The notes beneath the pieces are model-generated. The model was not told the DNA's origin. It saw only the letters and a list, made by a program, of their open reading frames with translations, and ran no database searches. A program made the translations under genes and the position numbers. From positions 7,601,187 through 7,665,186 of the forward strand of contig NZ_GG657757.1 in the NCBI RefSeq assembly GCF_000158955.1: 64,000 bases of DNA, given 5' to 3'. Each line of letters starts with the position of its first letter. Positions within the stretch are counted from its first letter, which is position 1. Below, piece by piece: positions 19,575 to 23,693 of this stretch. Origin of the DNA: Streptomyces viridochromogenes DSM 40736 (GTDB lineage Bacteria > Actinomycetota > Actinomycetes > Streptomycetales > Streptomycetaceae).

Positions 19575-19605
19575 GGGCCCCGCCGGAACTGTTCCGGCGG
19601 GGCCC
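19575..19605 (+). terminator. Strong terminator after the exporter unit
   Basis: GGGCCCCGCCGGAAC (19575-19589) and GTTCCGGCGGGGCCC (19591-19605) are perfectly complementary, 13 bases after the ATPase stop. Confidence 0.8.
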
Positions 19606-19703
19606 GCGTCTGCAAAGGAAACGTCAACTCCGGCCCATCTCAGGAATCTTGGGGCCAATCGGTGTGTTCTCGTGATGCACAGGACACCCTGGCGAACCGC
19701 GAC

Positions 19704-19717
19704 ACGTTGTACAACGT
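19704..19717. promoter_or_regulatory. Perfect 14-bp palindrome upstream of the hopanoid operon
   Basis: ACGTTGTACAACGT is its own reverse complement and lies about 155 bases before the first ORF of the hopanoid operon. It is AT-richer than its surroundings and resembles a dimeric-regulator operator. The rest of 19606-19857 has TANNNT-like boxes (for example TAGAAC near 19837) but no convincing gene. Confidence 0.5.
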
Positions 19718-19923: not shown

Positions 19924-20822
19924 CGGGAACCGGCACGGCCCGCGCCCTCGATCCGGAGCGCGGCACCCTCGACAAGGCCGCGGGTGAGAACTTCCCGGTG
20001 GCCCCGTTCTTCCTGCCCCGGGCCTGGCGCGAGGACCTCATGGCCGTCTACGGTTTCGCCCGCCTCGTCGACGACATCGGCGACGGCGACCTGGCCCCGG
20101 GCGGCGCCGACGCCCGCCTGCTCGGCGTGTCCCCCGAGGAGGCCGAGGACCGGCTGGCCCTGCTGGACGCGTTCGAGGCCGACCTGCGCAGGGTCTTCGA
20201 CTCGACCCCCCACCACCCCCTGCTGCGCCGCCTCCAGCCGACCGTGCGCCGCCGTTCGCTCACCCCCGGGCCGTTCCTCGGCCTGATCGCCGCCAACCGC
20301 CAGGACCAGGTGGTCAGGCGGTACGAGACCTACGACGACCTCCTCGCGTACTGCGAGCTGTCCGCCAACACCGTCGGCCGTCTCGTCCTCGCCGTCACCG
20401 GCACCTCGTCGCCCGAGCGGATCCGCCGCTCCGACATGATCTGCACGGCCCTCCAGATCGTCGAGCACCTCCAGGACGTGGCCGAGGACCTCGGCAGTGA
20501 CCGTGTTTACCTGCCCGCCGCCGACATGAAGCGTTTTCATGTCGAGGAGGCGGATCTCGCCACGAAAACCGCCGGAGCGTCGGTCCGTGCGCTGATTGCG
20601 TACGAAGCGCAAAGGGCCCGGGATCTCCTGAATGAAGGCGCCCCCTTGGTGGGTAGCGTCCACGGCAGGCTGAAGCTGCTGCTCGCAGGGTTCGTGGCAG
20701 GGGGAAGGGCGGCCGTCCGCGCGATCGCCGCCGCCGATTACGACGTACTTTCCGGCCCGCCCAAGCCCGGCAAGGTCCAGTTGCTGCGTGAGGTGGGCGT
20801 GACTCTGCGAGGGAAGGGGTGA
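19920..20822 (+). CDS. hpnC: Squalene-pathway synthase HpnC
   Basis: A 300-residue trans-isoprenyl diphosphate synthase of the squalene/phytoene synthase superfamily. The first Asp-rich motif is FARLVDDIGDGDL, the second is LQDVAEDLGSDR, and CELSANTVGRLVL lies between them. HpnC converts presqualene diphosphate to hydroxysqualene in the three-step HpnCDE route to squalene. It starts at GTG 19920, overlapping the small leader ORF, and its stop overlaps the GTG of hpnD. The first enzyme gene of an 11-gene hopanoid operon. Confidence 0.92.
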   Translation: MTGTGTARALDPERGTLDKAAGENFPVAPFFLPRAWREDLMAVYGFARLVDDIGDGDLAPGGADARLLGVSPEEAEDRLALLDAFEADLRRVFDSTPHHPLLRRLQPTVRRRSLTPGPFLGLIAANRQDQVVRRYETYDDLLAYCELSANTVGRLVLAVTGTSSPERIRRSDMICTALQIVEHLQDVAEDLGSDRVYLPAADMKRFHVEEADLATKTAGASVRALIAYEAQRARDLLNEGAPLVGSVHGRLKLLLAGFVAGGRAAVRAIAAADYDVLSGPPKPGKVQLLREVGVTLRGKG

Positions 20823-21769
20823 TCCGGACCGTGGAGTCGGAACCGCACGCGTCCCCACCGGTACTCGCCGCCTACAGCTACTGCGAGGCCGTCACCGGGC
20901 GGCAGGCCCGTAACTTCGCCTACGGCATCCGGCTGCTGCCGGCGCCCCAGCGCCGTGCGATGTCGGCGCTGTACGCGTTCTCGCGGCGGGTCGACGACAT
21001 CGGCGACGGCGCGCTCGCCGGCGACGTCAAGGTCGCCAGGCTGGAGGAGACCCGGGCGCTGCTCACCCGGATCCGCGAGGACGAGATCGACGAGGACGAC
21101 ACCGACCCGGTCGCCGTCGCCCTCACCCACGCCGCCCGGCACTTCCCGATCCCGCTCGGCGGGCTCGACGAGCTCATCGACGGCGTCCTGATGGACGTCC
21201 GCGGCGAGACCTACGAGACCTGGGACGACCTGAAGGTCTACTGCCGCTGTGTGGCGGGTGCCATCGGGCGCCTCTCGCTCGGGGTGTTCGGCACGGAACC
21301 GGGGGCGCGCGGCGTCGACCGCGCGCCCGAGTATGCCGACACGCTCGGGCTCGCGCTCCAGCTCACCAACATCCTCAGAGACGTACGCGAGGACGCCGTG
21401 GGCGGCCGTACCTATCTGCCCGCCGACGACCTCGCCAAGTTCGGCTGCTCGGCCGGTTTCAGCGGGCCACGGCCACCGGAGGGCTCCGACTTCGCGGGCC
21501 TCGTGCACTTCGAAGTGCGACGGGCCCGCGCTCTTTTCGCCGAGGGCTACCGGCTGCTCCCGATGCTCGACCGGCGAAGCGGCGCCTGCGTCGCCGCCAT
21601 GGCCGGCATCTACCGCCGCCTCCTCGACCGCATCGAGCGCGACCCGGAGGCCGTGCTGCGCGGCCGCGTCTCCCTGCCCGGCCGGGAGAAGGCCTATGTC
21701 GCGGTGCGCGGCCTGTCCGGCCTGGACGCCCGGCACGTGACCCGACGGGCCGTCAGGAGGCGTGTGTGA
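20819..21769 (+). CDS. hpnD: Presqualene diphosphate synthase HpnD
   Basis: A 316-residue squalene/phytoene synthase homologue. Its first Asp motif is FSRRVDDIGDGAL and its second LTNILRDVREDAV; FAYGIRLLPAPQRRAMSALYAF is the typical N-terminal segment. HpnD couples two farnesyl diphosphates to presqualene diphosphate, supplying HpnC. GTG 20819 overlaps the hpnC stop; a GTG at 20831 is an alternative. It ends in a short basic tail, and its stop overlaps a GTG that opens the next, unusual ORF. Confidence 0.92.
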   Translation: MIRTVESEPHASPPVLAAYSYCEAVTGRQARNFAYGIRLLPAPQRRAMSALYAFSRRVDDIGDGALAGDVKVARLEETRALLTRIREDEIDEDDTDPVAVALTHAARHFPIPLGGLDELIDGVLMDVRGETYETWDDLKVYCRCVAGAIGRLSLGVFGTEPGARGVDRAPEYADTLGLALQLTNILRDVREDAVGGRTYLPADDLAKFGCSAGFSGPRPPEGSDFAGLVHFEVRRARALFAEGYRLLPMLDRRSGACVAAMAGIYRRLLDRIERDPEAVLRGRVSLPGREKAYVAVRGLSGLDARHVTRRAVRRRV

Positions 21770-22290
21770 CGAACGAACGGACGCGCGGTCAGGTCCCCGG
21801 CGGGACGGCTTGTCCCCGCCGCGGGGCGACGCCGTGCGGCGACCCCCGCGTGCGCCGTGCGGCCGGACAGGTGCTCGCCGGGAGGGGCACCCCCCGGCCC
21901 CCGTACGGCTGCTGCGCGCGGCCGGGGTCCGGGAGGCCGCCCGGAGCGGGGCGCGCCTCCGGCGGCCAGGTGTCGCACGGCGGTACCCCGCCGTGCGAAC
22001 GGAGTGTCCGCCGCGTGGCCGAGCCTTTGTTCGTCCTGTCCGGTCACGGTGGCGAGGTGACGCATGGCGGTGTCCTGCCGTGCGACTGGCGCTTTTGCCG
22101 CGCGGCCGAGTACTCGTTCGTCCCGGCCCGGTCGCGTGAACGCGTAGCGGTCGGCGGTGCGTCGTGCCCCGGCGCCGCCCGGGACAAGCGGCGGGCAACC
22201 CTCCGGCGTGCGGTCGCGTCCCTGACTGAGATGGTCGGCCGTGCGTCATGCGAGCCGCACGGCCGCCGCGCAGGGGAGGGTGCACGATGA
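21766..22290 (+). CDS. Repeat-containing DUF6380-like ORF between hpnD and hpnE
   Basis: A continuous frame joins hpnD to hpnE with overlaps at both ends (GTG in the hpnD stop; its TGA overlaps the hpnE ATG). It encodes up to 174 residues, Cys-, Arg- and Gly-rich. The last ~40 residues (KRRATLRRAVASLTE, then GRRAGEGAR) match my memory of the small DUF6380 proteins found at this spot in other Streptomyces. The rest consists of degenerate 29-residue repeats beginning V-x-H-GG. The expressed product may be only the C-terminal part, for example from GTG 22056. The function is unknown. Confidence 0.5.
   Translation: MTNERTRGQVPGGTACPRRGATPCGDPRVRRAAGQVLAGRGTPRPPYGCCARPGSGRPPGAGRASGGQVSHGGTPPCERSVRRVAEPLFVLSGHGGEVTHGGVLPCDWRFCRAAEYSFVPARSRERVAVGGASCPGAARDKRRATLRRAVASLTEMVGRASCEPHGRRAGEGAR
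21968..22141 (+). repeat. Two degenerate 87-nt tandem repeats
   Basis: Units starting at 21968 and 22055 align in phase (87 nt, 29 codons): GTGTCGCACGGCGG versus GTGACGCATGGCGG, then CCGTGCGA in both, then GTGGCCGAG versus GCGGCCGAG and TTCGTCC. A weaker third unit begins near 22142. The codon-length period keeps the frame open. Confidence 0.6.
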
Positions 22291-23693
22291 CCCACGGCAC
22301 GCGGTCCGAGGGACCGGACGGACGGCACGCCGTCGTGGTGGGCGGCGGACTCGCCGGCACCACCGCCGCGCTCGCGCTCGCCGACGCCGGAGTGCGCGTC
22401 ACCCTGCTGGAGGGCCGGCCGCGACTCGGCGGCCTGGCCTTCTCCTTCCAGCGCGGCGAGCTCACCATCGACAACGGACAGCACGTCTACCTGCGCTGCT
22501 GCACCGCCTACCGCTGGTTCCTCGACCGCGTCGAGGGCGCCGCCCTGGCTCCGTTGCAGGACCGGCTCGACGTACCCGTCCTGGACGCCGCGCGGCCCGC
22601 GGGGCGCCGGCTCGGCAGGCTGCGGCGCGACGCGCTGCCCGTGCCCCTGCACCTGGGCCGCAGCCTCGCCGCCTACCCACACCTGTCGCTGGCCGACCGC
22701 GCCCGGGTGGGCCGGGCCGCGCTCGCGCTCAAGGGGCTCGACCTCGCCGATCCGGCCCTGGACACACAGGACTTCGGCAGCTGGCTGGCCGCGCACGGCC
22801 AGTCCGCGCGGGCCGTCGAGGCCCTGTGGGACCTGGTCGGGGTCGCCACCCTCAACGCGGTCGCCGGGGACGCCTCGCTGGGGCTCGCCGCGATGGTGTT
22901 CAAGACCGGTCTGCTCTCCGACCCGGGCGCGGCCGACATCGGCTGGGCGCACGTCCCGCTCGGCGACCTGCACGACCGGCTGGCCCGCAAGGCCCTCGAC
23001 TCCGCGGGCGTCCGCACCGAGGTCCGCACCCGGGTCGCCTCCGTCTCCGGGAACGGGGACGGACGCTGGAACGTCCAGGTGCCCGGCGAGACGCTTCAGG
23101 CCGACGCGGTGGTGCTCGCCGTACCGCAGCGCGAGGCCCACGACCTGCTTCCCGACGGTGCCCTCGACGCCCCCGAACGGCTCCTGGGCATCGGCACCGC
23201 GCCCATCCTCAACGTCCATGTGGTCTACGACCGGAAGGTGCTGGCCCGGCCGTTCTTCGCCGCGCTCGGCAGCCCCGTGCAGTGGGTCTTCGACCGCACC
23301 GCGGCATCCGGGCTGCGTGACGGGCAGTACCTCGCCCTCTCCCAGTCGGCGGCCCAGGACGAGATCGACCAGCCCGTGGCCGTGCTCCGCGAGCGGTACC
23401 TGCCCGAACTGGAGCGCCTGCTGCCGCTCACCCGCGGTGCCGAAGTGAAGGACTTCTTCGTCACCCGGGAGCGCACCGCGACGTTCGCTCCCACCCCCGG
23501 CGTCGAGCGCCTCAGGCCCGGCGCCCGCACCAAGGCATCCGGCCTGTACCTGGCCGGAGCGTGGACCGCCACAGGGTGGCCCGCGACCATGGAGAGTGCG
23601 GTCCGCAGTGGCGTCGGCGCGGCGGACGCCGTGCTGGACGCCCTGGGCCGGCCCCGCCCTCGCCACCTCTTCGAGTTCGAGGAGGCGGCGTGA
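22287..23693 (+). CDS. hpnE: Hydroxysqualene dehydroxylase HpnE
   Basis: A 468-residue FAD-dependent amine-oxidase-fold enzyme. The dinucleotide loop VVVGGGLAGTTAALALADAG is near residues 16-35, followed by the EGRPRLGGLAFSF flavin-binding segment. The C-terminal FAD motif is GLYLAGAWTATGWPATMESAV. HpnE reduces hydroxysqualene to squalene, completing the HpnCDE path. The ATG at 22287 has CAGGGGAGGG upstream, an unusually strong site. It lies between the DUF6380-like ORF and the prenyl synthase gene. Confidence 0.92.
   Translation: MTHGTRSEGPDGRHAVVVGGGLAGTTAALALADAGVRVTLLEGRPRLGGLAFSFQRGELTIDNGQHVYLRCCTAYRWFLDRVEGAALAPLQDRLDVPVLDAARPAGRRLGRLRRDALPVPLHLGRSLAAYPHLSLADRARVGRAALALKGLDLADPALDTQDFGSWLAAHGQSARAVEALWDLVGVATLNAVAGDASLGLAAMVFKTGLLSDPGAADIGWAHVPLGDLHDRLARKALDSAGVRTEVRTRVASVSGNGDGRWNVQVPGETLQADAVVLAVPQREAHDLLPDGALDAPERLLGIGTAPILNVHVVYDRKVLARPFFAALGSPVQWVFDRTAASGLRDGQYLALSQSAAQDEIDQPVAVLRERYLPELERLLPLTRGAEVKDFFVTRERTATFAPTPGVERLRPGARTKASGLYLAGAWTATGWPATMESAVRSGVGAADAVLDALGRPRPRHLFEFEEAA

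Follow-up and report, generated by a model that had tools for sequence, protein, structure and literature searches.

Introduction

ECF promoters, coupled overlaps between genes and small intervening ORFs are all known kinds of element. In coupled gene pairs, the stop codon of one gene meets the start codon of the next in an ATGA, GTGA or TGATG overlap. The S. coelicolor sigma-E promoters hrdDp1 and cwg, as given in Table 1 of PMC6767563, combine an AAC-core −35, a 16-nt spacer and a CGTC −10 at a short distance from the downstream gene; the same source states that such promoters are also recognised by additional ECF sigmas. In S. coelicolor, the hopanoid cluster spans sco6759–6771, with sco6760 as phytoene synthase and sco6762 as phytoene dehydrogenase, and sco6761 is left out of the conserved set in PMC4551226. 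For both S. coelicolor and S. avermitilis, PMC3765725 describes a strong antisense RNA that lies opposite hopC/sco6762.

We analysed a 64,000-nt stretch of the Streptomyces viridochromogenes DSM 40736 genome (the window), in which an ORF, here called X, lies between hpnD and hpnE. Both junctions of X are of the same type as in coupled gene pairs, and relatives that lack X have a direct hpnD/hpnE overlap, as such pairs do; what sets X apart from plain coupled pairs is that the genes are separated by an entire ORF, which varies in length and sequence. The number sco6761 falls between sco6760 and sco6762, so this gene is probably the X of S. coelicolor, as judged by the gene number and PMC4551226. 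In the literature searched, we found no mention of DUF6380 (PF19907), the Pfam family to which the tail of X belongs, nothing on point about hpnD/hpnE coupling, and no description of a coupled ORF that houses an ECF promoter and belongs to a named protein family made up mostly of promoter. Sequence comparison makes it quite probable that X serves as a translational bridge and houses an internal ECF (sigma-E-type) promoter for hpnE and the genes that follow, with the protein as a by-product.

Results

ORF X overlaps hpnD and hpnE and ends in a DUF6380 tail

The upstream partner, hpnD (20819–21769, + strand), belongs to the squalene/phytoene synthase family (Pfam SQS_PSY, E 2.2e-72). The downstream partner, hpnE (22287–23693, +), is of the amine oxidoreductase or squalene/phytoene desaturase type (Pfam Amino_oxidase, E 1.2e-55, scanned from 22248). 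Between them, X occupies 21766–22290 on the + strand with 174 codons. It shares 4 nt with each neighbour: its GTG start overlaps the hpnD stop in a GTGA (21766–21769, +), and its TGA stop (22288–22290) overlaps the hpnE start in an ATGA (22287–22290, +). The last 37 residues of X (residues 138–174; 22177–22287, +) match DUF6380 with 47.8 bits (E 1.3e-12; curated cut-off, 27), so that by score the tail is a member of the family. Within this tail, GGGGAGGG (22273–22280, +) is likely the hpnE ribosome-binding site; it encodes part of the GEG of DUF6380 and shows low column entropy. The overlap with both neighbours, the DUF6380-like tail and the richness in Cys and Arg had been noticed in a preliminary description made from the sequence alone, and all of them held; of the 174 residues, 29 are Arg and 9 are Cys. 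Richness in Ala, Arg and Gly is common to X ORFs generally; Cys averages only 1.8% over 159 X. DUF6380 scored above the cut-off as a single copy in the window's genome and in 169 of 392 genomes of the genus. Two matches each were seen in the genomes G079, G106, G109, G125, G212, G244, G276, G326 and G373.

X is widespread and varies in length among relatives

A first set of 110 rows comprised the window and 109 of the 110 loci L036–L145; L075 was left out, as its contig starts inside hpnE. An ORF overlapping both hpnD and hpnE was present in 109 of the 110 rows. In the exception, L065, X begins directly after an hpnD stop in another frame. Because the first set had been selected by DUF6380 score or hpnE similarity, a second sample of 197 genomes of the order was drawn; 192 of them contained hpnE, and all 192 loci were compared. 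X ended on the hpnE start in 163 of the 192, with 159 overlapping the hpnD stop and four (L257, L259, L276 and L281) following directly after a shifted hpnD stop. In L257 and L259, as in L065, X begins right after the stop, here the TAG of hpnD, and it ends on ATGA. In all four of the abutting loci hpnD ends in another frame (TAG or TGA just before ATG), and the frame of X, the element described below and the ATGA are kept. A direct hpnD/hpnE overlap without X was found in 27 loci, made up of 15 from the window's genus and every one of the 12 hpnE-bearing genomes from another family. The remaining two loci were irregular: in L185 the element is present, but the ORF continues past the hpnE start, and L201, from another genus, has neither the element nor such an ORF.

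Comparison of lengths among strains, which the preliminary description had proposed, gave a span of 14 to 199 aa in the second sample. In close relatives, with hpnE at least 90% identical to that of the window, some X had 44 or 63 aa and others 100–207 aa. On a tree of HpnD plus HpnE, the fewest changes between X and direct overlap were 5, and the fewest for X attaining 80 aa were 13; owing to kinship among the sampled genomes the counts are not independent, and the tree counts correct for relatedness in part. Since the other family is direct throughout, the order that best fits is a direct overlap first, followed by a promoter-bearing insert with an open frame that kept the coupling, the lengths then varying by lineage.

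The reading frame is retained and the amino acids drift

The fewest changes on the HpnD plus HpnE tree put the number of span changes among the 159 X at no fewer than 76, all of them frame-preserving; spans were counted from stop to stop, which avoids one-codon effects of start choice. By side of the element, 60 changes fell before it and 37 after it. The start and stop of X overlap the stop and start of its neighbours, and these junctions persist through the length changes, with the proviso that the X class is itself defined by both junctions. Among loci with any insert, the hpnE junction was broken only in L185 and L201. By definition, all 159 X have an open true frame; of the two remaining forward frames, one was open in 36 X and the other in 95. 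Conservation of the frame in relatives, which had been named as a test of the ORF, was thus observed.

The amino acids behaved differently from the frame. Among 267 X (duplicates included), 238 distinct rows with the element were retained, and 65 X of one length class (1583 pairs) were used for dN/dS. Outside the core the ratio was 0.73 before it and 0.96 after it, compared with 0.64–1.11 for the wrong frames and 0.15 for hpnD; the hpnE row was not used, as it was misaligned at a variable N-terminus. Purifying selection on X amino acids outside the element was therefore not detected in this set, the ratio being near neutral and like that of the wrong frames. The G+C content by codon position was 73/68/77 in X (267 X) and 75/52/93 in hpnD, indicating that X is without the usual coding signature of these genomes.

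These data bear on the strongest of the alternatives, namely that X is a functional small basic protein of hopanoid synthesis, whose C-terminal domain, DUF6380, is conserved and whose N-terminal tail is free. The Pfam match above the cut-off, its recurrence in the genus and the frame open in 163 of 192 loci speak for it. A dN/dS near 1 and no lower than in wrong frames, a G+C pattern that is not of the coding type, the range of lengths and the 27 loci without X speak against it, as do the conserved residues, which are exactly those set by DNA frozen at synonymous sites. We regard such a protein as unlikely, and the fast-evolving hopanoid protein of the preliminary description did not find support. 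Its other proposal, a translational bridge that grew by duplication, fared better, as frame and junctions persist through the length changes and the amino acids drift.

X contains a tandem repeat and a putative captured gene fragment

The preliminary description took X to consist of 87-nt repeats. The repeat is real: by self-comparison and TRF (score 195), copy 1 (21960–22046, +) and copy 2 (22047–22133, +) are 74% identical over 82 nt and 71% over 87 nt. These are the only two clear copies and make up about one third of X, so that the wording "consists of repeats" was overstated. Further repeat-like matches from 21802 and 21859 were weak (8 of 29 residues). An X of 199 aa in L101 and L157 contains another short tandem repeat, of alternating GLAVSGG units, which is independent of the 87-nt repeat of the window.

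When X was searched against the rest of its genome, one significant second site was found. It is a 60-bp segment (21895–21954, +), overlooked in the preliminary description, that is identical at 57 of 60 positions to G000:C1:5308000–5308059, a fragment of an Amidohydro_3-family gene 2.3 Mb from X, in the same sense and another frame. The other X ORFs compared contained nothing comparable; the best match was 77% over 57 nt on the other strand. The fragment was therefore most likely copied into X in the window's lineage, and the direction, from the amidohydrolase gene to X, follows from the 60 bp belonging to a recognisable enzyme gene. Judged from these alignments, growth of X in this lineage is apparently tandem duplication plus one captured gene fragment. 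Captured fragments were also sought in the expanded X of G432 and G197, and only short weak matches were seen (best E 2.4e-4 and 1.7e-4, respectively). The expanded X of G456 was rejected as a capture, its matches being many and of low identity (best E 1e-9 at 75% identity).

A promoter-like element inside X is frozen at synonymous sites

The preliminary description had also missed that the tail of X is conserved as DNA. Its frozen core, GGCAACC-N16-CGTCCC, lies 64 nt 5′ of hpnE on the same strand and consists of a −35-like element, GGCAACC (22194–22200, +), and a −10-like element, CGTCCC (22217–22222, +), 16 nt past the −35. Column entropy was near zero at GCA ACC and at GCG TCC CTG ACT; the start and the GGGGAG ribosome site also had low values. 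The Ala codon seven before AS[LQP]T, where Thr follows, was GCA in 217 of 217 cases, a codon with 3.4% usage in the flanking genes, and the Thr codon after ASL was ACT in 182 of 232 cases (1.3% in the flanking genes); in one codon tally the A of the −35 codon is preset by the selection rule, and an unconditioned count was made separately. Where Ala was substituted at the −35 codon, TCA or ACA was used, so that the A before AC was retained. The codon frame of the element was identical in 138 of 139 exact matches. An in-frame AAC–CGTC pair was present in 153 of the 159 X and missing in six, and the AAC and CGTC cores persisted where flanking bases change. X is kept with a weak or missing element in L224 and L229 (<3 bits), and in L194 CGTC lies only 18 nt before the hpnE start, a distance that is short for a leader. 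In L262 (G328; X of 97 aa), the −35 word is apparently parted from the −10 word by a long in-frame insertion, so that the element would be broken naturally at this locus.

The element matches ECF sigma-E promoters

A matrix was built from the 91 predicted S. coelicolor sigma-E sites published in Table 1 of PMC6767563. The element at 22194–22222 scored 13.9 bits, compared with a median of 13.0 for the 91 sites, and ranked fourth among all sites on the two strands of the 64-kb window taken together. Among the 159 X, 143 reached at least 11 bits and 153 at least 8 bits. Codon shuffles of X reached these scores in 0.8% and 4.7% of cases, and the reverse strand of X in 0 and 1 of 159. The last 150 nt of hpnD reached 11 bits in 0 and 8 bits in 30 of 159; its shuffles reached 8 bits in 6.9%, and low scores therefore mean little. 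In a control of 29 rows first classed as without X, which covers the hpnD end only and includes L257 and L259, which have X, 5 of 29 reached 8 bits and none reached 11. A weaker match within X at 22136 (10.7 bits), in the expanded part, is not claimed as a promoter.

The element thus has the AAC-core −35, the CGTC/TC-core −10 and the 16–17-nt spacer of ECF sigma-E-type promoters, and points toward a nearby gene at a short distance. It shares these features with hrdDp1 and cwg in Table 1 of PMC6767563, and both it and hrdDp1, listed there as GGCAACCCTC..CGTCTT, carry GGCAACCCTC. It differs from the sigma-E promoters of that table in lying within an ORF in mid-operon, and in its −10, CGTCC, a minority form there, CGTCT being commoner. 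Moreover, sco6762 is missing from the targets in that table, so the element may serve a sigma other than sigma-E, which we consider a doubtful candidate.

The strict element pattern occurs at three sites in the 8.65-Mb genome, including that in X. The other two, G000:C1:5712517 (L368) and G000:C1:4547898 (L367), lie 100–130 nt before genes, one of the penicillin-binding-protein type (transglycosylase and transpeptidase domains) and one with an Exo_endo_phos domain. The transglycosylase/transpeptidase class of gene occurs among the sigma-E targets in Table 1 of PMC6767563. Both genes are possible members of one regulon with the element in X.

A binding site for a regulator, or another element that is not a promoter, would also be frozen as DNA. 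There are two conserved boxes, and the conserved CTCC and CTGACT fall outside what an ECF promoter strictly needs. Set against this, we found no evident palindrome or direct repeat, the match is strand-specific, the boxes and their spacing correspond to published sigma-E promoters, and AAC and CGTC outlast changes in the flanks; we hold this explanation to be improbable, slightly more so than that of a functional protein. X might instead be a pure translational bridge whose conserved core has no transcriptional role, as the few strains in which the element of X is weak or absent would allow. This would leave unexplained why synonymous sites are frozen in two boxes that keep a constant 16-nt spacing, and we give it little credence. 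Least probable of all, and rejected here, is a structured RNA (a leader, a riboswitch or a hairpin masking the hpnE ribosome site): by eye, GCAACCCTCC could pair with GGAGGGTGC of that site in the window, but the stretch folds like its shuffles (z −0.07), the consensus structure is empty in 65 aligned X, there is no Rfam match at the gathering score, and GCAACC is constant across sequences whose ribosome site differs (GGGGAGGG, GGAAGGAC and others).

A proposed mechanism for the bridge and its internal promoter

In the bridge-plus-promoter reading, ribosomes finishing hpnD would restart on X at the overlapping or abutting start codon, traverse X and stop on the hpnE start codon. In this way hpnD would stay coupled to an hpnE that it no longer adjoins. 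Transcription by RNA polymerase carrying an ECF sigma would begin some 55–60 nt 5′ of hpnE, so that hpnE and the later genes could be transcribed without hpnC–hpnD; the trigger is probably an envelope or developmental signal. The promoter, the hpnE ribosome site and the two junctions would fix their codons in X, and the other residues would drift, so that X could grow by tandem duplication and captured DNA, provided that its frame was preserved.

Compared with PF19907 as a protein family, the conservation of X is at the DNA level, in the promoter-like element and the ribosome site, and purifying selection was not detected elsewhere in X. On balance we lean towards regarding DUF6380 as for the most part the amino-acid reading of an ECF promoter plus a ribosome-binding site, and X as a "translated promoter", open only to lodge a promoter without uncoupling the genes. 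If so, a stress-type internal promoter splits hpnC–hpnD from hpnE and the later genes in Streptomyces hopanoid synthesis, and a named protein family conserved mostly through DNA signals would be a warning for the annotation of small ORFs. The suggested rule is that coupled operons take in promoters by keeping the frame of the insert open. Translated bridges may be a general route to internal promoters in operons, and a place where new proteins arise.

Sites upstream of hpnC

An ECF-like site, CGGAAC-N17-CGTCTG (19584–19612; 14.1 bits), lies about 337 nt 5′ of hpnC, and 57 of 79 named loci have it at the same distance. The site falls on a terminator-like hairpin that follows the upstream gene, and we do not claim it as a promoter. 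A perfect palindrome, ACGTTGTACAACGT (19704–19717), about 200 nt 5′ of hpnC, is a candidate operator for the hopanoid operon.
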